From positions 1-64,000 of the forward strand of contig SCVN01000007.1 of assembly GCA_004296885.1 (NCBI GenBank): a stretch of DNA of 64,000 nt, read 5' to 3'. Under the pieces are notes generated by a model. The model worked only from the letters and a program-made list of their open reading frames with translations. It was not told the origin of the DNA and did no database searches. This document shows positions 22,484 through 56,071 of the stretch, in pieces. Position 1 is the stretch's first letter, and each line of letters starts with the position of its first letter. Position numbers and translations under genes: made by a program. Source of the DNA: Nitrospirota bacterium (GTDB taxonomy: Bacteria > Nitrospirota > Nitrospiria > Nitrospirales > Nitrospiraceae).

Positions 22484-22555
22484 GAAGTCGATAAAGTCTG
22501 AAAGTTGTAAAGTCCTAGGGCTTCGAGACTTTACGACCTGACAACTTTCCAACTT
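22484..22555. repeat. Word-palindrome, AAGTC family (nuoA-nuoB)
   Basis: The left arm repeats AAGTC/AAAGT words (GAAGTC, AAAGTC, GAAAGTTG, AAAGTCC); the right arm repeats their complements (GACTTTACGACC, CAACTTTCC, CAACTT). The arms pair imperfectly around CTAGGGCTTC. It fills most of the 98-base spacer. Confidence 0.85.
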
Positions 22556-22569
22556 GAAGGACGAAGAAT

Positions 22570-23051: not shown

Positions 23052-23114
23052 GTCGTAAAGTCCGAAAGTCTTTCAAGTCCCTTAACTTGATGACTTTATA
23101 GACTTGATGACTTT
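23052..23114. repeat. Word-palindrome, AAGTC family (nuoB-nuoCD)
   Basis: Left arm GTAAAGTCCGAAAGTC then TTTCAAGTCCC; right arm AACTTGATGACTTTATAGAC then TTGATGACTTT. It fills the whole 65-base spacer, and the right arm runs directly into the nuoCD ATG, so a hairpin would hold the start codon at its base. No separate Shine-Dalgarno sequence is visible. Confidence 0.85.
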
Positions 23115-24881
23115 ATGACGAATGGCACCATGCATCCACTGCTCGACACGATAAAGAGCCGGTTCCCCGAGGCGGTCCTGGCCGTCCAGGAGGACAAGCA
23201 GCGGGGGGACCTCTCCGTCCGCGTGGCCGCCCCGCGCCTGCTGGAGGTCGCCCGGTTTCTGCACGACGACCCGGTCGCGGCCTTCGACCACATTACCGAC
23301 ATCTGCTCGGCCGACTATCCGGACGATCCGGAGCGGTTCGAGGTCATCTACCATTTTCTGTCGCTGCCGCACGGGATCCGGATTCGCGTCAAGACCCGCG
23401 TGACCGAAGAGCATCCGGTCGTCCCGTCGGTCACGAGCGTCTGGAAGGGCGCCGACTTCATGGAGCGGGAGGTCTACGACCTCATGGGCATCACGTTCAG
23501 CGGCCATCCGGACTTGCGCCGCATCCTGATGCCGGAGGACTACGACGAAGGGCATCCGCTGCGGAAGGACTTCCCCGCCGAGGGCCGGGGTTGGCGCAGC
23601 CGGTTCGACTTCCTGCCCCGTCTCGACGAAGCGCCGGTGGCGGAAACCGGGGGAGACATCCCTGAAGCGGAGAAGCGTGCCTTCCGGACCGAGCCGGGCC
23701 ACTCGTCGGCCCGTCGGACCGAAGAACTCCTCCTGAACATGGGACCGCAGCACCCGGCGACCCACGGCGTGCTGCGGGTCGTGCTGGAACTGGACGGGGA
23801 GCGCATCACCAAGGCGACGGCCGACCTGGGCTACCTGCACCGCGGCGTGGAGAAGCTGGCCGAGGGGCTGGCCTATATGCAGATCATCCCCCACACGGAC
23901 CGGCTGGACTACGTCTGCTCGATGACCAACAACTACGCCTACGTACGGACCGTGGAAAAGCTGCTGGGGCTCAAGATTCCCGAGCGCGCCGAGTACATCC
24001 GGACCATCGTGGCCGAAATGCAGCGGATCATCGGGCACCTCTTCTGGCTCGGCACCCAGGCCCTGGACATCGGGGCGATGACGGTGTTCTTCTGGACCTT
24101 CCGCGAGCGGGAAGTGCTGTTGGACATGTTCGAAAAGCTCTGCGGCGCCAGGCTGACGCTGAACTATTTCCGCATCGGCGGGGTGGACAGCGACTTTACG
24201 CCGGACCTCGTGGAACGGCTGCGCGCCTTCCTGAAGGATTTCCCCGCGCACATCGCGGAGTACGAGACCCTGCTCCAGACGAACCGGATTTGGGTGGGCC
24301 GCACGAAGGACGTGGCGGTCATTTCCGCCGAAGACGCGATCAACTTCGGGCTCACCGGCCCGGTGCTCCGCGCGTCGGGCGTGGCCTACGACGTGCGGAA
24401 GCTGGAGCCTTACGGAGCCTACGACAAGGTCGAGTGGGAAGTGCCGATCGGCAAAAACGGCGACACCTACGACCGGTACTGGGTGCGGATGGAAGAGCTG
24501 CGCCAGAGCTCCCGCATCATCGCCCAATGTCTGGATCTGCTGCCGGAGGGGCCGATCGTGGCCGACGCGCCCAAGATCATCCCCCCGCCCAAGGCCCACG
24601 TGATGCGGGACATGGAAAGTTTGATCCACCATTTCATCATCTTCACCCAGGGCTTCAAGCCGCCCAAGGGGGAAACCTATTGCGCGACCGAGGCGCCGAA
24701 GGGCGAGTTGGGCTTCTTCATCATCAGCGACGGAAGCCCGAGGCCCTACCGGATGAAAATCCGCGCCCCCTCCTTCGTGCACATGGGCGCCTTCGACCAT
24801 ATGGCGCGAGGCTATTTGATCTCGGACATCATCACGATCTTCGGGACGTACGACATCGTCATGGGGGAGTGCGATCGATAA
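23115..24881 (+). CDS. nuoC: Fused NADH-quinone oxidoreductase subunits C and D
   Basis: A 588-residue fusion. NuoC (about 1-185) shows HITDICSADYPDDPERFEV and the end MEREVYDLMGITFSGHPDLRRILMPEDYDEGHPLRKDFP region; NuoD begins near residue 200 with LLNMGPQHPATHGVLR. NuoD continues with DRLDYVCSM and ends with the quinone-site tail FGTYDIVMGECDR. NuoD houses the quinone-binding pocket with NuoB. The fusion is common in Nitrospira and gammaproteobacteria. The arginine methylated by NDUFAF7 in mitochondria lies in the N-terminal part of NuoD, and a member of that enzyme family is encoded at the head of this operon. Confidence 0.96.
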   Translation: MTNGTMHPLLDTIKSRFPEAVLAVQEDKQRGDLSVRVAAPRLLEVARFLHDDPVAAFDHITDICSADYPDDPERFEVIYHFLSLPHGIRIRVKTRVTEEHPVVPSVTSVWKGADFMEREVYDLMGITFSGHPDLRRILMPEDYDEGHPLRKDFPAEGRGWRSRFDFLPRLDEAPVAETGGDIPEAEKRAFRTEPGHSSARRTEELLLNMGPQHPATHGVLRVVLELDGERITKATADLGYLHRGVEKLAEGLAYMQIIPHTDRLDYVCSMTNNYAYVRTVEKLLGLKIPERAEYIRTIVAEMQRIIGHLFWLGTQALDIGAMTVFFWTFREREVLLDMFEKLCGARLTLNYFRIGGVDSDFTPDLVERLRAFLKDFPAHIAEYETLLQTNRIWVGRTKDVAVISAEDAINFGLTGPVLRASGVAYDVRKLEPYGAYDKVEWEVPIGKNGDTYDRYWVRMEELRQSSRIIAQCLDLLPEGPIVADAPKIIPPPKAHVMRDMESLIHHFIIFTQGFKPPKGETYCATEAPKGELGFFIISDGSPRPYRMKIRAPSFVHMGAFDHMARGYLISDIITIFGTYDIVMGECDR

Positions 24882-24962
24882 CGATGAAGTATGAATGATG
24901 AACGATGAATGGCCGAACAGACCGCTTCCCATTCATCATTCAGCATTCATCATTTATCGTTC
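24882..24962. repeat. Word-palindrome, GATGAA family (nuoCD-nuoE)
   Basis: Left arm GATGAAGTATGAATGATG then AACGATGAATGG; right arm CCATTCATCATTCAGC then ATTCATCATTTATCGTTC. Pairing is almost complete over about 28 bases. The left arm is rich in overlapping ATG and TGA triplets in all three frames. Confidence 0.9.
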
Positions 24963-24982: not shown

Positions 24983-25513
24983 ATGCTGAGAGAAAAGTAT
25001 AAGACCGAGATCGAGGAAATTCTGTCCCGCTACCCCGTGAAGCGCTCGGCCTTGCTGCCCCTGCTCTACCTGGCGCAGCGCGAGGCCGGCTACATCAGCG
25101 AAGAGGCGATGCAGGAGATTGCCGGACTCCTGCGGCTCACGCCGCCTCAGGTCTATGAGACGGCGACCTTTTATACGATGCTGAACCTGAAGCCGGTCGG
25201 GAAGTTTCACCTCCAGGTCTGCAAGTCGCTCATGTGCGCTTTGGTGGGCTCCGACACCTTGATCGGCTGGCTGGAAAAGAAATTGGGCATCAAGTCCGGC
25301 GAAACGAGCAAGGACGGTCTCTTCACGCTGAGCAAGGTGGAATGTCTGGGGGCCTGCGGGACCGGACCGATGATGCAGATCAACGACGACTATTACGAGC
25401 GGTTGACCGAAGAAAAGGTGGACCGGATCCTGGCCGACCTGAAGCGGGACGGCACCAGCGCCTTGAAGACCGGTCCCTTCATGTGGCCCGAGCCCAACGG
25501 AGCAAAGCCATAG
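24983..25513 (+). CDS. nuoE: NADH-quinone oxidoreductase subunit E
   Basis: The 176-residue thioredoxin-like subunit binds the N1a [2Fe-2S] cluster through CKSLMC (C-x4-C) and VECLGACGTGP (C-x3-C), with all four ligands present. It is part of the NADH-oxidising tip with NuoF and NuoG. AGGTGAG lies upstream of the ATG. The stop overlaps the start of the next word-palindrome. Confidence 0.96.
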   Translation: MLREKYKTEIEEILSRYPVKRSALLPLLYLAQREAGYISEEAMQEIAGLLRLTPPQVYETATFYTMLNLKPVGKFHLQVCKSLMCALVGSDTLIGWLEKKLGIKSGETSKDGLFTLSKVECLGACGTGPMMQINDDYYERLTEEKVDRILADLKRDGTSALKTGPFMWPEPNGAKP

Positions 25514-25580
25514 GCGCATATGGCCTATGGCTCGGACAGACAGAACTTTCTTGCCATAAGCTATAGGCCATAAGCTCTTA
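25508..25580. repeat. Word-palindrome, TATGGC family (nuoE-nuoF)
   Basis: Left arm CATAGGCGCATATGGC then CTATGGCTC; right arm TTGCCATAAGCTATAGGCC then ATAAGCTC. It overlaps the nuoE stop codon. The same word family forms the element at 51804-51893. Confidence 0.85.
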
Positions 25581-26899: not shown

Positions 26900-26997
26900 A
26901 GTCTTGAAAGTCCGAAAGTCGTAAAGTCTCATGACCAGCGACTTTCGAATTTCAGACTTTAAGACTTGACGGACTTTTAGACTTTATCGACTGACTT
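26900..26997. repeat. Word-palindrome, AAGTC family (nuoF-nuoG)
   Basis: The left arm repeats GAAAGTCC, GAAAGTCG, TAAAGTC; the right arm repeats GACTTTCG, AGACTTTAAGACTTG, GGACTTTTAGACTTTATCG. The right arm abuts the nuoG ATG at 26998. Confidence 0.87.
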
Positions 26998-29661: not shown

Positions 29662-29663
29662 CG

Positions 29664-29736
29664 TCGGAAAGTCTATCAAGTCCGAAAGTAGCCAAGTCGG
29701 CGTCGGACTTTTTGACGTGATGACTTTTTAACTTGA
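29664..29736. repeat. Word-palindrome, AAGTC family (nuoG-nuoH)
   Basis: Left arm GGAAAGTCTATCAAGTCC then GAAAGTAGCCAAGTC; right arm GGACTTTTTGACG then TGATGACTTTTTAACTTG. It ends just before the GAGGGA ribosome-binding site of nuoH. Confidence 0.85.
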
Positions 29737-29747
29737 GGGACTCAGTC

Positions 29748-30814: not shown

Positions 30815-30881
30815 AGTTGACAGTTATCAGTTCACCGTTCCGGAAAAACTGATTACTGAAAACTGACCACTGAGAACTCAG
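30815..30881. repeat. Word-palindrome, CAGTTATCAGTT family (nuoH-nuoI)
   Basis: Left arm GACAGTTATCAGTTCACC; right arm AAACTGATTACTGAAAACTG then ACCACTGAGAACTCAG, complementary through repeated CAGTT/AACTG words. It runs up to the nuoI ATG with no clear separate Shine-Dalgarno sequence. Confidence 0.82.
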
Positions 30882-32085: not shown

Positions 32086-32388
32086 ATGATTCCCGTTTCC
32101 TATTACCTGATTCTGAGCATGATCGTGTTCGTCACCGGACTCGTGGGAGTACTGGTGCGGCGCAACATCATCATCATTTTGCTCTCGGTCGAGCTGATGT
32201 TGAACGCCACGAACATCAACTTCGTGGCGTTTTCCCACTATTTTCACAACGTGGCCGGCCAAGTCTTCGTCTTCTTTGCCTTGACCGTGGCGGCGGCGGA
32301 AGTGGCGGTGGGCCTCGCCATCATCATCGCCTTGCACCGGAGCAAGTCCAGCATCAACGTGGACGAGTTCCAGCTTCTTAAATGGTAA
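32086..32388 (+). CDS. nuoK: NADH-quinone oxidoreductase subunit K
   Basis: A 100-residue subunit of three helices, homologous to MrpC. It keeps the conserved acidic residue in [14 protein letters not shown] and a second glutamate in [15 protein letters not shown], both needed for the proton path. Length and motifs are typical. Confidence 0.96.
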
Positions 32389-32392
32389 ACGC

Positions 32393-32475
32393 GAAATGAT
32401 GAACGATGAACGAAGGAAAGCCCTGCAGGACCGTATCGCCGCCGGTCATCACTCATCATTCATCATTCATCGTTG
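32393..32475. repeat. Word-palindrome, GATGAA family (nuoK-nuoL)
   Basis: Left arm GAAATGATGAACGATG then AACGA; right arm TCATCACTCATCATTC then ATCATTCATCGTTGATTT. Same words as the nuoCD-nuoE spacer, but with a different loop. Confidence 0.87.
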
Positions 32476-34388: not shown

Positions 34389-35978
34389 ATGAGCCACTTT
34401 CCCTGGCTGACCGCGATCATCTTCCTCCCGCTCGCCGGGGCAGCGGCGCTGTTCTTCGTCAAGGCGCAGCAGGCCCGCTGGCTTGCGCTGGGCGTGACGC
34501 TGGCGGACTTTGCCCTGTCGCTGCCCCTCTGGTTCGGTTTCGACGCCACGACGTCCCAGATGCAGTTCACCGAGCGGGCGTCGTGGATCACGTCGCCCGC
34601 CATCAACTATGCACTCGGATTGGACGGCATCAGCCTGCCGATGATCCTCCTGACCACGTTCCTGACTCCCTTCTGCGTGGGGATTTCCTGGCGCGCGATC
34701 GAAAGCCGGGTCCAGCTCTTCATGGCCAGCCTCCTGGTCATGGAAACCGCCATGCTGGGGGTCTTCGCCGCATTGGACTTCGTGCTGTTTTACGTATTCT
34801 GGGAGGCGATGTTGATCCCCATGTACCTGCTCATCGGGGTCTGGGGCGGCCCCAACCGGGTCTACGCGGCGGTGAAGTTTTTCCTGTACACCCTGGTGGG
34901 AAGCGTCCTGCTCCTGGTCGCCATCATCGTGTTGTTTTTCAAGGGCGGCCACACGTTCGACATCCTCCAGCTCAGCAAAGGCGATTACGCCCCGGTGCTC
35001 CAGAGCTGGATCTTCTGGGCCTTCTTCGCCGCATTCGCCGTCAAGGTGCCGATGTTCCCCTTCCACACCTGGCTCCCGGATGCGCACGTGGAAGCGCCCA
35101 CGGCGGGCAGCGTGATCCTGGCCAGCGTGCTGTTGAAGATGGGCGCCTACGGATTCCTCCGGTTCACGCTCCCCATGCTTCCGGATGCGACGATCGCGTA
35201 TACCCCGATCATCATCGCTCTCTCGGTGATCGCGATCCTCTACGGGGCCTACATGGCCCTGGCCCAGGCCGACCTGAAAAAATTGATCGCCTATTCCAGC
35301 GTCAGCCACATGGGATTCGTGACCCTCGGCATTTTTGCGCTGAACACCCAGGGGATCGAAGGCGCGATCCTCCAGATGGTCAATCACGGCATCACGACCG
35401 GCGCCCTGTTCCTCTGCGTCGGCATCATTTACGAACGGACCCACAGCCGGTTGATCAGCGACAACACCGGCCTGACCGGGCCCATGCCGCGCTATGCCAC
35501 GTTCCTGGTCATCTTTTCCCTCTCGTCCCTGGGTCTGCCCGGCACGAACAGCTTCGTGGGCGAGTTTCTCGTGCTGGCCGGCACCTTCTTCCGGAGCAAA
35601 CCGGTGGCGGCGCTGGCCTCGCTCGGCATCATTTTGGCCGCCGCCTACATGCTCTGGATGGTGCAGCGCGTGGCGTTCGGCACGCGCTCCGAACAATCCG
35701 CACACCGGCCCGTCCATTTGTCCGATCTGAACCTGCGCGAAATGGCGCTGCTGGCCCCACTGCTTGTGCTCGTCTTCTGGATCGGGTTGGTCCCAAACCA
35801 GGTCCTGACCCCCATGCATGCCAGCGTCGCGAACCTGCTGGATCAAATGGACCAGGAAGAAACGGCGCTGGCGCAAATTATAGGCACGGGGCAAGCGGCA
35901 AGGGGCGATAGGCAAGAACCGCTCCCCGCTCCCTTGCCCCTTGCCGCTCGCCACAGGCCGGACAAGAGTATTCCATGA
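34389..35978 (+). CDS. nuoM: NADH-quinone oxidoreductase subunit M, with an element-derived tail
   Basis: The 529-residue antiporter-like pump has 14 predicted helices with FWEAMLIPMYLLIGVWG (key Glu), KVPMFPFHTWLPDAHVEAPT and SSVSHMGFV. The ATG at 34389 (GTG at 34386 also possible) follows the nuoL stop by four bases. Family sequences normally end soon after the last helix and VANLLDQM. Here about 33 more residues follow (from about 497), encoded by a word-palindrome, before the stop overlaps nuoN by ATGA. The tail is Pro/Ala/Arg-rich and probably disordered. Confidence 0.95.
   Translation: MSHFPWLTAIIFLPLAGAAALFFVKAQQARWLALGVTLADFALSLPLWFGFDATTSQMQFTERASWITSPAINYALGLDGISLPMILLTTFLTPFCVGISWRAIESRVQLFMASLLVMETAMLGVFAALDFVLFYVFWEAMLIPMYLLIGVWGGPNRVYAAVKFFLYTLVGSVLLLVAIIVLFFKGGHTFDILQLSKGDYAPVLQSWIFWAFFAAFAVKVPMFPFHTWLPDAHVEAPTAGSVILASVLLKMGAYGFLRFTLPMLPDATIAYTPIIIALSVIAILYGAYMALAQADLKKLIAYSSVSHMGFVTLGIFALNTQGIEGAILQMVNHGITTGALFLCVGIIYERTHSRLISDNTGLTGPMPRYATFLVIFSLSSLGLPGTNSFVGEFLVLAGTFFRSKPVAALASLGIILAAAYMLWMVQRVAFGTRSEQSAHRPVHLSDLNLREMALLAPLLVLVFWIGLVPNQVLTPMHASVANLLDQMDQEETALAQIIGTGQAARGDRQEPLPAPLPLAARHRPDKSIP
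35885..35952. repeat. Word-palindrome, GGCAAG family, inside the nuoM 3' end
   Basis: Left arm GGGGCAAGCGGCAAGGGGC then GATAGGCAAG; right arm CTTGCCCCTTGCCGCTCGCC. It lies in frame inside nuoM and encodes most of its extra C-terminal tail. Confidence 0.85.
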
Positions 35979-40858: not shown

Positions 40859-41333
40859 CCGCCCGATAATGAGAGCCTACAGACCGGAGGATCGCGAGCC
40901 GGTGGTCCGGTTGCTCGCCGGATCCGATCCCTGGCGGAAGCTCGGGTACGGGGACGAGGACTGGTCCCGCTTGTTCCGGACCGATGGAATCGTCGAGGGC
41001 CGCGAGGGCTACGTGTTGGAAGCCGACGGGGCCGTGGCCGGCGTGGCGCTGCTTCGGCCCAAGTTCCTGATGGGGGACTATCTGGAGTTGCTGGCCATCG
41101 CCCCGGCGACACGCAACAAGGGATACGGCGCCCTGCTGCTCGCGCAGATCGAGGCCATCACTTTCGCACGGGCCAAGAACCTCTTCGCCTGCGTGTCCGA
41201 CTTCAACGACGGCGCCAGGCGGTTCTATGTCAGGCAGGGGTACCGTGAGATCGGACCGATGCCCAACCTGTTGATCCCAGGCAACGCAGAGTTGTTGTTA
41301 CGGAAAACGATGGGGCCGGCGAGAACAAGGTAG
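40848..41333 (+). CDS. GNAT-family N-acetyltransferase
   Basis: A 161-residue protein with the GNAT core: MRAYRPEDREPVVRLL at the start, YLELLAIAPATRNKGYGALLL with the acetyl-CoA-binding R/Q-x-x-G-x-G/A-like loop RNKGYG, and FYVRQGYREIG near the end. It transfers an acyl group to an unknown amine. It overlaps the deacetylase by 11 bases, so the two are probably coupled; an alternative start is the ATG at 40869. A word-palindrome follows directly after the stop. Confidence 0.88.
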   Translation: MPGDRPIMRAYRPEDREPVVRLLAGSDPWRKLGYGDEDWSRLFRTDGIVEGREGYVLEADGAVAGVALLRPKFLMGDYLELLAIAPATRNKGYGALLLAQIEAITFARAKNLFACVSDFNDGARRFYVRQGYREIGPMPNLLIPGNAELLLRKTMGPARTR

Positions 41334-41390
41334 CTATCAGCACTCAGCCATCAGCGGTCCGTATTGCTGAGAGCTGACGGCTGTATGCTC
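41332..41390. repeat. Word-palindrome, CAGC/TCAG family (GNAT-glyoxalase spacer)
   Basis: Left arm AGCTATCAGCACTCAGCC then ATCAGCGG; right arm TTGCTGAGAGCTGACGGC then TGTATGCTCATGG. It fills the spacer and ends just before the GGAG of the next gene. Confidence 0.82.
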
Positions 41391-48225: not shown

Positions 48226-50664
48226 TCAGGACGCCGCCGTCAACGAACCCTGCCGGCTTCTCCAGCATGGCATCCAGGCCAGGGCCACCAGCTTGACGGC
48301 AATGTTGCTCTTGGTTGGCTTGAGCGCCAGGGTTTCGAGTGGCTCCGTCTGTCCGTCGAGCGCAACGGCCAGCTTGTCCACTTCCCCTTGAAACTGCGCC
48401 TCGAGTTCCGCGATCTGCTGGTCAAGCGCCGCGACGTTCTCTTTCGCCAGCCCCACATCTTTCGTATCTTTGATCGCCCGCCCGGCCCCCCGGATCGCCG
48501 TGGTCGCCTTCCCGATCGTGGAGGCACTCACCGTCTTTCTCCCCATGAAGGCCTGCAATAACGTCGCCCCGACTGAGATAGCCGCTTGCACCTTGCTCTG
48601 GTTGGCCTGCTCTTCTTCCCGCGCCACCGATTGCTCGGCCCGCCGCTTCCGCTCCTGAAGCGACGCGAACTTCGGCGCATACTTCTGCCGCAACCGCTCG
48701 GTTTCCTGATCCCGCCGTTCATGGGTTGCCTGTTGGAGGCGAATTCGGAAGTCTCGCTCCGTTTCGCCCGGCTTGGATAGGAGCTTGAGCCGGGCGCTCT
48801 TGCACAGGGTCACTGATTGAGTTCGGTAGAGCCAGGCCGCAAATTCCTTTCCCCAGGCATCATAGTTCTTCGCCTTGCCGGCGGAAGCGGGCAAGGCGGC
48901 GAACTGCGCCGCGTTTTGAGGAGCCTGCTCCAAATCCGACACCGCGATCCCAGCCTCGCGGGCTTCGTCCCAGTTGACCGGTACCGGCGCGTCGGTGATG
49001 GCCGACAGAAACGCCACATCTTGCGTGACATCCACGCCGGCTTTGACATCCGCCACGCGCACCTGGGCCGCCCCCAACAACATCGGCTGATAGACCAATG
49101 TGCTCTCCGCCGGCTGGTTGCCCCGCAAAGGAACAAAATATTGCGGAACCTCCGGCGGCAGCAACGGACGTGAGGAGTGAGGTATACGGGGTGAGGGATA
49201 GCTTGCGCTCTCCACCTTTGTTTCTGTCGCCTCACGCCTCACGCCTGACGCTTTACGAGATTCCATGAGTGTCTTGATCTGGTTGCGCGCCAGCGGACCG
49301 CGCAAGTAGGACAAGGTCCAGCGCGACTCGAACACTTCCGGCGCATCCTCATGGACGTTGTTCAACAGAAAGATTCGGCTGCCAAGGCCGGCCAGCAGTT
49401 GTTCCATCTTTGGACGGTCGAATTTCTTGCCGCTCCCGGCGGCGGCTCCTTCCAGACCTTCCAGCACCCGCGCCTTGTCGCGTTCCGTCTGCAGCCGCCC
49501 GATGAACCAGGTGCCGGTATTGGCCAGGCCCTTGTAATCCAGGTCCACCGGATTCTGCGTCGCCAGGACCACCCCCAGCCCGAAGGCCCTGGCCTGTTTG
49601 AGCAAAGTCAGCAAGGGGGCCTTGGACGGAGGGTTGGCCACCGGCGGGAAGTAGCCGAAAATCTCGTCCATGTAAAGCATCGCCCGCAAGCTGGTCGTCC
49701 CCGATTGCGCCCGCATCCACCCCAGAGTCTGGCTCAATAACAGCGTGACAAAGAACATGCGTTCGGCATCGTTGAGATGGGCGATCGAGAAGATGGCGAT
49801 GCGCGGCTTCCCCTCCGGTGTGTGGAGGATCTGATCGATCTCCAGCGGCACCCCCTCCAGCCAGGTCGAAAAACCAGGTGCGGCCAGCAAGTTATTGAGT
49901 TTCATAGCCAGGCCGAACCGATCTTTCGACGGGAAGAACGATTCCACATCGAGGACCCCGACCTTCGCGACCGGCGGCTGTTGGATCTGCTGGATCAGCG
50001 AGGCCAGATCCAGATCGCGCCCCGTCCGCCAGGCGCAATCCAGTATCGTCGAAAGCAGAATATGCTCCCGGCTCTGGATCGGATCTGCCTCGATCCCCAA
50101 CAAGCCCAGCAGGCCGGTGACCGTCGTGCCGATGCGCTCACGCAGAAGCTCCGCATCGTCGAGAATGGTCTGCGCCGGGGCGGCGAAGGACTTAAGGATG
50201 GAGACGGGGATGCCGGCGTTGCTACCCGGCGTGTAGATGGCAACGTCGGCCGCCTCTTTGAGCCGCGCGATGCGGTCCCCGTCCTGCCCCCATTCGGCCA
50301 GGCCCTTCTTCCACAGGTCCGCCTGCTGCCGGGCATAGTCCGCCGGCGTCAGGCCATTTTTGCGGGCATCGTCCTCGTTGATCCAGGGGGCGAAGTCTTC
50401 CCCGCGCAACTGCGGAAAGGTCAGAAGCAGGTTGGCCAGATCGCCCTTGGGATCGATCACGATAGCGGGGATGCCGTCGATCGCCGCCTCTTCGAGCAGG
50501 CCCAGACAGAGGCCGGTCTTGCCGCTGCCCGTCATGCCCACGCAGACTGCGTGGGTCAGCAGGTCTTTGGACTCATACAGCAGCCAGCCCTTCTTGGGCT
50601 TTTTCTTTGCGAGGTCATAGGGTCGTCCGAGGTAGAAGACCCCCAGCTTTTCAAAGTCCTGCAT
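48226..50664 (-). CDS. HerA/VirB4-like P-loop ATPase (DUF87-type) carrying an inserted palindrome
   Basis: The 812-residue ATPase has Walker A GMTGSGKTG (43-51), IPAIVIDPKGDLANLL, the Walker B-like LYMDEIFGYFPP, and the sensor GVVLATQNPVDLDYKGL. Then comes a conserved RWTLSYLRGPL segment. A C-terminal region (about 640-800) has charged coiled coils (EEEQANQSKVQ; AALDQQIAELEAQFQGEVDKL). Relatives are helicase- or secretion-type ATPases of unknown process. AAGGAG lies eight bases before the ATG at 50664. Residues about 466-498, between the two parts, are encoded by a word-palindrome and have no family counterpart that I can see. Confidence 0.82.
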   Translation of the reverse strand: MQDFEKLGVFYLGRPYDLAKKKPKKGWLLYESKDLLTHAVCVGMTGSGKTGLCLGLLEEAAIDGIPAIVIDPKGDLANLLLTFPQLRGEDFAPWINEDDARKNGLTPADYARQQADLWKKGLAEWGQDGDRIARLKEAADVAIYTPGSNAGIPVSILKSFAAPAQTILDDAELLRERIGTTVTGLLGLLGIEADPIQSREHILLSTILDCAWRTGRDLDLASLIQQIQQPPVAKVGVLDVESFFPSKDRFGLAMKLNNLLAAPGFSTWLEGVPLEIDQILHTPEGKPRIAIFSIAHLNDAERMFFVTLLLSQTLGWMRAQSGTTSLRAMLYMDEIFGYFPPVANPPSKAPLLTLLKQARAFGLGVVLATQNPVDLDYKGLANTGTWFIGRLQTERDKARVLEGLEGAAAGSGKKFDRPKMEQLLAGLGSRIFLLNNVHEDAPEVFESRWTLSYLRGPLARNQIKTLMESRKASGVRREATETKVESASYPSPRIPHSSRPLLPPEVPQYFVPLRGNQPAESTLVYQPMLLGAAQVRVADVKAGVDVTQDVAFLSAITDAPVPVNWDEAREAGIAVSDLEQAPQNAAQFAALPASAGKAKNYDAWGKEFAAWLYRTQSVTLCKSARLKLLSKPGETERDFRIRLQQATHERRDQETERLRQKYAPKFASLQERKRRAEQSVAREEEQANQSKVQAAISVGATLLQAFMGRKTVSASTIGKATTAIRGAGRAIKDTKDVGLAKENVAALDQQIAELEAQFQGEVDKLAVALDGQTEPLETLALKPTKSNIAVKLVALAWMPCWRSRQGSLTAAS
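49168..49259. repeat. Word-palindrome, GTGAGG family, inside the HerA-like gene
   Basis: Left arm CGTGAGGAGTGAGGTATAC then GGGGTGAGGG; right arm CGCCTCACGCCTCACGCC then TGACGCTTTACGAG. It is read through in frame on the minus strand. It shares the CGTGAGGAGT-x-AGG core with the nuoJ-nuoK spacer. Confidence 0.87.
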
Positions 50665-51803: not shown

Positions 51804-51893
51804 AAGAGCGTATGGCTGATAGCGAATGGCAAGATGACATCGGAGGCCTCGCCGAGTGATCCTCTTGCCATAAGCCATATGCCATTAGCTCTT
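51804..51893. repeat. Word-palindrome, TATGGC family, between convergent genes
   Basis: Left arm AAGAGCGTATGGCTGATAG then CGAATGGCAAGA; right arm TCTTGCCATAAGCCATATG then CCATTAGCTCTT. About 30 bases pair with few mismatches. In this position it could also act as a two-way terminator. Confidence 0.87.
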
Positions 51894-55988: not shown

Positions 55989-56071
55989 TGACAAGTTTAT
56001 CAAGTCTGAAAGTCATCAAGTCCCAGGATATTCTCGACTTTATAGACTTTGCAACTTTGCGACTTTATAGA
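55989..56071. repeat. Word-palindrome, AAGTC family (ubiE-radical SAM spacer)
   Basis: Left arm GACAAGTTTATCAAGTCTG then AAAGTCATCAAGTCCC; right arm CGACTTTATAGACTTTGC then AACTTTGCGACTTTATAG. Same words as in four nuo spacers. It ends two bases before the next ATG. Confidence 0.87.

Follow-up and report, generated by a model that had tools for sequence, protein, structure and literature searches.

In Coxiella burnetii, the intervening sequence (IVS) of the 23S rRNA carries an S23p/IVP gene in the loop of its complementary termini; GACAGAT heptamers precede the gene, and the element has been called selfish (PMC4990558). That the IVS gene serves mobility was suggested by Ralph and McClelland (1993, cited in PMC4990558), and the member of the protein family from Xanthomonas was described as a ring of five four-helix bundles (PMC4990558). 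In addition, IVP has been placed in rRNA insertions of CPR bacteria (PMC11270868), 18 IVP genes were reported in cas loci (PMC3936711), and the protein is related to Avd of diversity-generating retroelements (PMC10053308). Heptamers are also described between genes. The GGGAATC heptamers of Xanthomonas form closely spaced convergent pairs of repeat sites, of which 70 and 75 were counted; the heptamers were read as G-quadruplex repeats generally unassociated with mobile elements, and the term "four helix" is absent from that article (Rehm et al., 2015; PMC4692102). The TAACTGA repeats of Beggiatoaceae and cyanobacteria are heptamers near start codons, with 7-nt indels between strains; they are direct repeats of a single word and were interpreted as binding sites of a translational regulator (MacGregor, 2015; PMC4679880). 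In our literature search no title or abstract was found that links IVP genes with inverted arrays of heptamers outside rRNA, which is weak evidence of novelty since most subscription journals lay outside its scope. The IVP family is abundant in many phyla and its function is unassigned.

In REPIN/RAYT systems and MITEs, short dispersed inverted repeats are moved by a protein encoded elsewhere. In this study we report the inverted word arrays of a 64-kb stretch of DNA (hereafter the window, meaning the whole stretch analysed) and of its genome (G000, 3.26 Mb; G-numbers denote genomes and L-numbers loci). The elements of the window, which are collected in Table 1 and whose arrays have a period of 7-8, are probably gene-less members of mobile hairpin families that have both gene-bearing and gene-less forms. 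They differ from REPIN/RAYT in that G000 lacks a RAYT-type Y1 transposase and that the word hairpins share words and have no consensus. The TAACTGA repeats correspond to the CAGTT word of the window and differ from it as direct repeats of one word.

Table 1. Word hairpins and arrays of the window (positions counted from its first nucleotide).
Feature	Position	Context	Remarks
TATGGC-family hairpin, gene-less	51804-51893	between convergent genes	ends AAGAGC...GCTCTT
TATGGC-family hairpin	25511-25580	nuoE-nuoF spacer	words, arms, fold
AAGTC-family hairpin	22487-22562	nuoA-nuoB spacer	words, arms
AAGTC-family hairpin	23052-23119	nuoB-nuoCD spacer; extends to nuoCD start codon	words, arms, fold
AAGTC-family hairpin	26900-26992	nuoF-nuoG spacer	orthologue in G007 (other genus) with one 8-nt word difference
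AAGTC-family array	29662-29740	nuoG-nuoH spacer	fold weak, z = -1.34
AAGTC-family array	56001-56066	ubiE-radical SAM spacer	fold z = -2.21
GATGAA-family hairpin	24880-24961	nuoCD-nuoE spacer	orthologues in G003 and G002
GATGAA-family hairpin	32388-32474	nuoK-nuoL spacer	words, arms
CAGTT-family hairpin	30815-30878	nuoH-nuoI spacer	words, arms, fold
GGCAAGG-family hairpin	35883-35959	within 3' end of nuoM reading frame	words, arms, fold
TCAGC-family array	41332-41382	between two genes	words; weakest of the set

A preliminary description of the window had claimed that the same word families recur at unrelated loci, and the search of the whole genome bore this out: the TATGGC, AAGTC and GATGAA patterns gave 59, 40 and 52 matches in G000, and none of the three reversed patterns gave any. 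The TATGGC words it had noticed at 51804 and in the nuoE-nuoF spacer were confirmed: six matches fall in the window where 0.28 would be expected, and every one lies inside these two elements. The AAGTC words of the ubiE-radical SAM spacer and four nuo spacers were confirmed by nine matches against 0.20 expected, eight of them within elements. For CAGTT, four matches were found against 1.23 expected. The words at 41332 had been likened to the CAGTT words at 30815. An array is indeed present there, as 4 of the 14 TCAGC matches in the window (8.07 expected; 14 was reached by 5 of 100 shuffles) fall in 41337-41384, but the likeness to CAGTT is loose and the fold of the stretch is ordinary (z = -0.60), and we treat it as a family apart.

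The stretch at 51804-51893 consists of two 34-nt arms (51804-51837 and 51860-51893) with a complementarity of 76% and, folded as single-stranded DNA, it reached z = -5.20, none of 200 shuffles being as good. Of its convergent neighbours, one has no Pfam match and the other is a DUF486/DMT_6 protein. When this locus was compared in six relatives, the downstream gene was adjacent only in G012, with a repeat of another type, and in G015, with no element; in G003 the two genes lie about 1 kb apart, and in the three remaining relatives the neighbour differs. An Rfam scan of the window gave no match, and a CRISPR, a riboswitch or another known RNA was dropped on these grounds; likewise, the tRNA search found none in the window and tRNA-associated sites were discarded. 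The hairpin at 35883-35959 encodes part of the NuoM protein tail. A solitary array, CGCCTCACGCCTCACGCCTGACGC, lies within a reading frame at 49228-49251, without a second arm.

We supposed that genes of the TIGR02436 family sit among such repeats, and this assumption was then put to the test. The model matched in 27 of 41 genomes (G000 and 40 relatives), with three copies in G000, one of them truncated, and gave no match in the 14 control genomes. These TIGR02436/PF05635 genes are flanked 5' by a word array and 3' by its reverse complement. The arms were scored by local alignment of each 5' flank to its own 3' flank, with the 95th percentile of mismatched flanks as cut-off. In the window's family, for which the surroundings of 80 out of about 100 listed TIGR02436 matches were taken, 73 of the 80 exceeded the cut-off. 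The same was true of 60 of the 78 usable loci in a second set of 80 named loci of many phyla, including Xanthomonas, Geobacter, Bacteroidetes, Planctomycetes, Treponema, Gloeocapsopsis and a Methanophagales archaeon. Among the named loci the best match came from a Nitrospirales bacterium (L150), which, together with the nuo operons, suggests that G000 is Nitrospira-like. For the first 40 elements, the arm matching was equalled in none of 2000 permutations, and only 2 of 97 ordinary small genes passed as controls, one being itself an IVP gene and the other nuoB, which lies between two AAGTC elements. Of 139 elements, 106 had a best arm period of 7, 17 a period of 8 and 8 a period of 9; a lag of 7 agrees with the tandem spacer units of about 7 nt in the LSSR/STRR-type intergenic heptamer repeats. 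In 126 of the 139 the 5' arm has more G than C, the G-rich strand running 5' to 3' toward the centre of the element.

All 17 proteins examined matched the PF05635 model and 10 of them the bAvd model, and structures 2GSC and 2RLD have been solved within the family. IVP is like Avd in belonging to a homologous fold family, and differs in that G000 has no reverse transcriptase. The Xanthomonas heptamers likewise share with our elements an intergenic location and convergent pairs, with the difference that here GGGAATC arms enclose an IVP gene (L160, L174). In the Xanthomonadaceae, five loci (L156, L160, L163, L173 and L174) have IVP elements between apparent accB and accC genes, seemingly at one site, and their words are related yet drift in both arms (GGGAATC, GGGATTCG and GTGATTCG). 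No IVP match was found in the phage collection, and in G009 word elements are present without a TIGR02436 match, which counts against the explanation proposed below.

With respect to the 23S rRNA IVS, the likeness is that the same protein family lies between complementary termini, a gene that the relatives have and the window's own elements do not. The stem of the termini is present as well, with folds of z < -3 in 5 of the 12 stretches of the window and not below -3 in the other 7. The IVS, which is cut out of the RNA by RNase III, sits in rRNA helices, whereas these elements occupy operon junctions in many copies, mostly gene-less and with many word families. The location in rRNA was tested and those of the window lie between protein genes; for this reason, we keep them apart from the 23S IVS, as apparently the same kind of element found outside rRNA.

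The two forms use the same words. The end words of 51804-51893 are also those of the gene-bearing elements L053, L082 and L089, and gene-bearing counterparts were found for TATGGC in G000 and many other genomes, for AAGTC in G000 itself and G007, for GATGAA in G003 and G010, for TCAGC in G003, and for GGCAAGG in G001 and others. The window's family yielded no gene-bearing CAGTT element; a Phycisphaerae bacterium has one whose words are CAGTTATCAGTT (L193). At the nuoE-nuoF junction, where the window has a gene-less TATGGC hairpin, G043 has an element with an IVP gene between CGTTAAACG-type arms; the gene is frameshifted and a 93-residue piece of it matches PF05635 (E = 5e-18). Gene-less hairpins with the CGTTAAACG words of this element occupy the nuoA-B, nuoCD-E and nuoF-G junctions of the same operon. 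That the commonest gene-less words of a genome are those of its own gene-bearing elements was rejected: by word frequency in the spacers of G000, the arms of the three gene-bearing elements take only places 19, 22 and 28 among 79.

In the explanation that we propose, a full member comprises a word array (of period 7, less often 8 or 9), a gene for the 23S_rRNA_IVP/TIGR02436 four-helix bundle and the reverse-complement array. Each element would insert whole, in the short gap that separates a stop codon from the start codon after it. The ring of IVP protein might bind the paired arms and direct copying or insertion, with host enzymes supplying the chemistry of cutting and joining. Gene-less members would arise through loss of the gene and may move in trans. 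Afterwards slippage, perhaps with one arm templating the other, would rewrite the words, leaving old copies with words alone in common. The elements hold no DNA cutting or joining enzyme, we know of no catalytic activity in the IVP protein family, and a role of this protein in movement is a guess.

The junctions of the nuo operon are occupied as a rule and their contents change. Among 13 genomes, 108 of 136 spacers were of at least 40 nt, and in 78 of these 108 an inverted repeat exceeded the 95th percentile of shuffles of the same spacer. Within the genus (G000-G003, with nuoI-J and nuoM-N left out), 32 of 34 scored junctions were filled, and in the 38 filled comparisons the element was replaced by an unrelated one in 26 and retained in 12, at a fourfold-site identity near 0.8. 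If our explanation is true, the spacers of core operons can be swapped wholesale between close relatives. Such mixed contents were also seen at the thioesterase junction. Among 30 genomes, elements of gene-bearing size (440-630 nt) have TATGGC words in 11 and TTCACG words in 7; the gene was confirmed by model in the genomes with listed TIGR02436 matches, and the others were classed by size. In 3 genomes the junction has a gene-less element, each of a different further word family, in 7 it is empty or has less than 43 nt, and 2 could not be resolved. A 464-kb sample has 253 spacers of 35-450 nt; in 41 of them an inverted repeat exceeded the 99th percentile of shuffles, compared with none of 253 shuffled spacers. 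About 28 of the 41 were judged by eye to be word arrays, and the others are terminators or different repeats.

That most junctions are exchanged although nearly all stay filled is what would be expected if an RNA hairpin between cistrons were selected, for messenger processing, stability or the decoupling of neighbours, the words that fill it being neutral. The orientation of the spacers with inverted repeats (35 of 197 codirectional, 5 of 24 convergent and 1 of 32 divergent) and the retained elements, which are more conserved than fourfold sites, a fact unexpected for plain parasites, point the same way. Nevertheless, empty junctions also occur, the few divergent cases may only reflect promoters that do not tolerate insertion, and such selection alone leaves the heptamer period, the sharing of words across loci and the nested gene unaccounted for. 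We therefore regard it as an unlikely explanation by itself. It can be true together with the mobile hairpin families proposed here, and the hairpin may serve a purpose in the messenger.

The relationship between words and protein was studied in a tree of 40 of the IVP proteins and in a word-sharing test with 79 elements, whose sites were assigned by similarity of the flanking genes and, for two of them, by hand. At the thioesterase junction, the genes with TATGGC arms and those with TTCACG arms form two distant clades, each supported by 100/100, and at a second junction the GGCAAG-armed genes (100/100) stand apart from the GTGATG-armed ones (99/97). Words were shared by 56% of 50 pairs with similar proteins at different sites, compared with 1% of 2561 pairs with dissimilar proteins and none of 91 pairs with dissimilar proteins at the same site. 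Words follow the protein lineage rather than the site, and therefore gene and arms travel together. In another reading the IVP gene would be cargo or a regulator, and some host or foreign transposase would move the hairpins by their ends. The lack of a catalytic domain in the protein speaks for it, as do the numbers in G000, where gene-less elements far exceed the gene-bearing ones (three IVP genes and scores of word sites). Cargo, however, would have no need of the co-variation of words and protein. Moreover, in searches for two enzyme families, RVT_1 had no match in G000-G003 (present in 11 of 41 genomes) and Y1 transposase none in G000, G001 and G002 (present in 9 of 25), results on which reverse transcription by a resident enzyme was rejected for G000 and a RAYT/Y1 transposase was set aside as the mover. 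We consider this reading of the gene as cargo or regulator unlikely. With regard to MITEs, a parent with an IVP gene was found; it has no recognised transposase within, and G000 has neither RVT_1 nor Y1.

Two clean pairs of filled and empty sites were found, both with gene-bearing elements and each with a 4-bp direct repeat of the target, and in such pairs the empty site could also come from deletion of an insertion between its direct repeats. In conjugative plasmids of Nostocales, a region 98-99% identical occurs with and without an IVP element (flanks 594/600 and 585/596); the empty site is GTAATTAACA and the filled one has TAAT, stop codon included, on both sides. In the window's own family, a 430-nt insertion at the thioesterase junction of G048, absent from G055 and G070, is bordered on either side by CGAC, with flanks 92-93% identical (465/508 and 463/504). 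Four further plasmid junctions have no clean 4-bp repeat, one of them being CTA(G) with a 1-nt difference; another lies within the 3' end of a gene, to which the element supplies a new stop, and in two more filled ones the duplication was unreadable. For gene-less elements no clean pair was found, the mixed junctions being only 76-93% identical in their flanks and the duplication unreadable. The pair formed by the cas6-cas4 regions of Anabaena 90 and Dolichospermum was rejected as a filled and empty site, given that the near-identical plasmid has another inverted repeat there. In plasmid pANA02 of Anabaena sp. 90 (L261, 1126-1901), an IVP gene with long GGTGACAGGGAACAG arrays lies between cas6 and cas4. 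It may be that the IVP genes known from cas loci entered them as insertions and are not Cas components.

The nuoF-G element (26900-26992 of the window, and L103) is nearly identical between genera, with an identity of 0.89 between G000 and G007 and of 0.58 at the flanking fourfold sites, and the nuoE-F element behaves likewise between G002 and G007 (0.87 vs 0.57); either transfer or strong constraint would give these values. The nuoF-G case is also what would result if strains exchanged operon alleles by ordinary homologous recombination, with elements that seldom move by themselves. This reading is improbable: within one operon, adjacent junctions differ in history although the genes around them hold one level of divergence, the element of the Nostocales plasmids is found again alone, without its flanks, on other plasmids (78-83% identity), and the 4-bp duplications do not fit it.

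Slippage, which the preliminary description had proposed together with template switching as the local origin of the elements, does act on the arrays, as deduced from the gain and loss of whole words: the array of nuoF-G differs by 8 nt between G000 and G007, two arrays differ by 7 nt between G000 and G002, and the 5' arrays of two filled Nostocales plasmids differ by exactly 14 nt, that is, two words. These data support slippage as a secondary process. The evidence for template switching is modest. The 5' and 3' arms of one element matched each other slightly better than arms taken from orthologues (better in 45 of 76 pairs, worse in 24 and equal in 7), which fits weakly either template switching or selection for pairing, and concerted evolution of the arms was discarded as the main force, the own 3' arm being the best in 24 of 49 elements. 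Local generation alone, with slippage making tandem words, template switching inverting them and similar seeds giving the shared families, is very improbable and as the sole process already contradicted, as it agrees with the whole-word indels, the slight advantage of own arms and the G000 copies having only words in common but does not account for the protein gene between arms in many phyla, the words that follow protein lineage, the exchange of whole elements within the genus or the 4-bp target duplications.

As the same description had stated, the copies in G000 share words and not end-to-end sequence. Its argument from this against transposition is not supported, since the same words end gene-bearing elements and track protein lineage, whole elements are exchanged and two clean duplications occur. 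In comparison with MITEs, inverted arms are present and the 4-bp duplication is seen at gene-bearing relatives only; end-to-end copies, which were not found among the gene-less elements of G000, exist in part among the gene-bearing plasmid relatives. Beyond the mobile hairpin families of the window, we put forward tentatively the possibility of a new class of transposable element without known transposase. In it, an Avd-like protein would recognise lineage-specific inverted heptamer arrays and carry both its own element and gene-less ones to operon junctions, duplicating 4 bp of the target, and the cyanobacterial and Xanthomonas heptamers, the rRNA IVS and the IVP genes of cas operons would all be members. 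If the explanation by mobile hairpin families is true, spacer heptamer repeats, rRNA intervening sequences and the IVP protein family would have one cause, the old idea of mobility through the IVS gene would become directly testable, and the IVP genes inside cas operons would be explicable as insertions. A different dispersed inverted repeat, some 100-250 nt long and ending in sequences such as GGATGTTGAAAAAGTC...CTTTTTGAACATTC, was observed at L031 (6997-7098), L039 (15114-15197), L033 (17961-18059) and L105 (G012), and its copies seem to align end to end, like an ordinary MITE.
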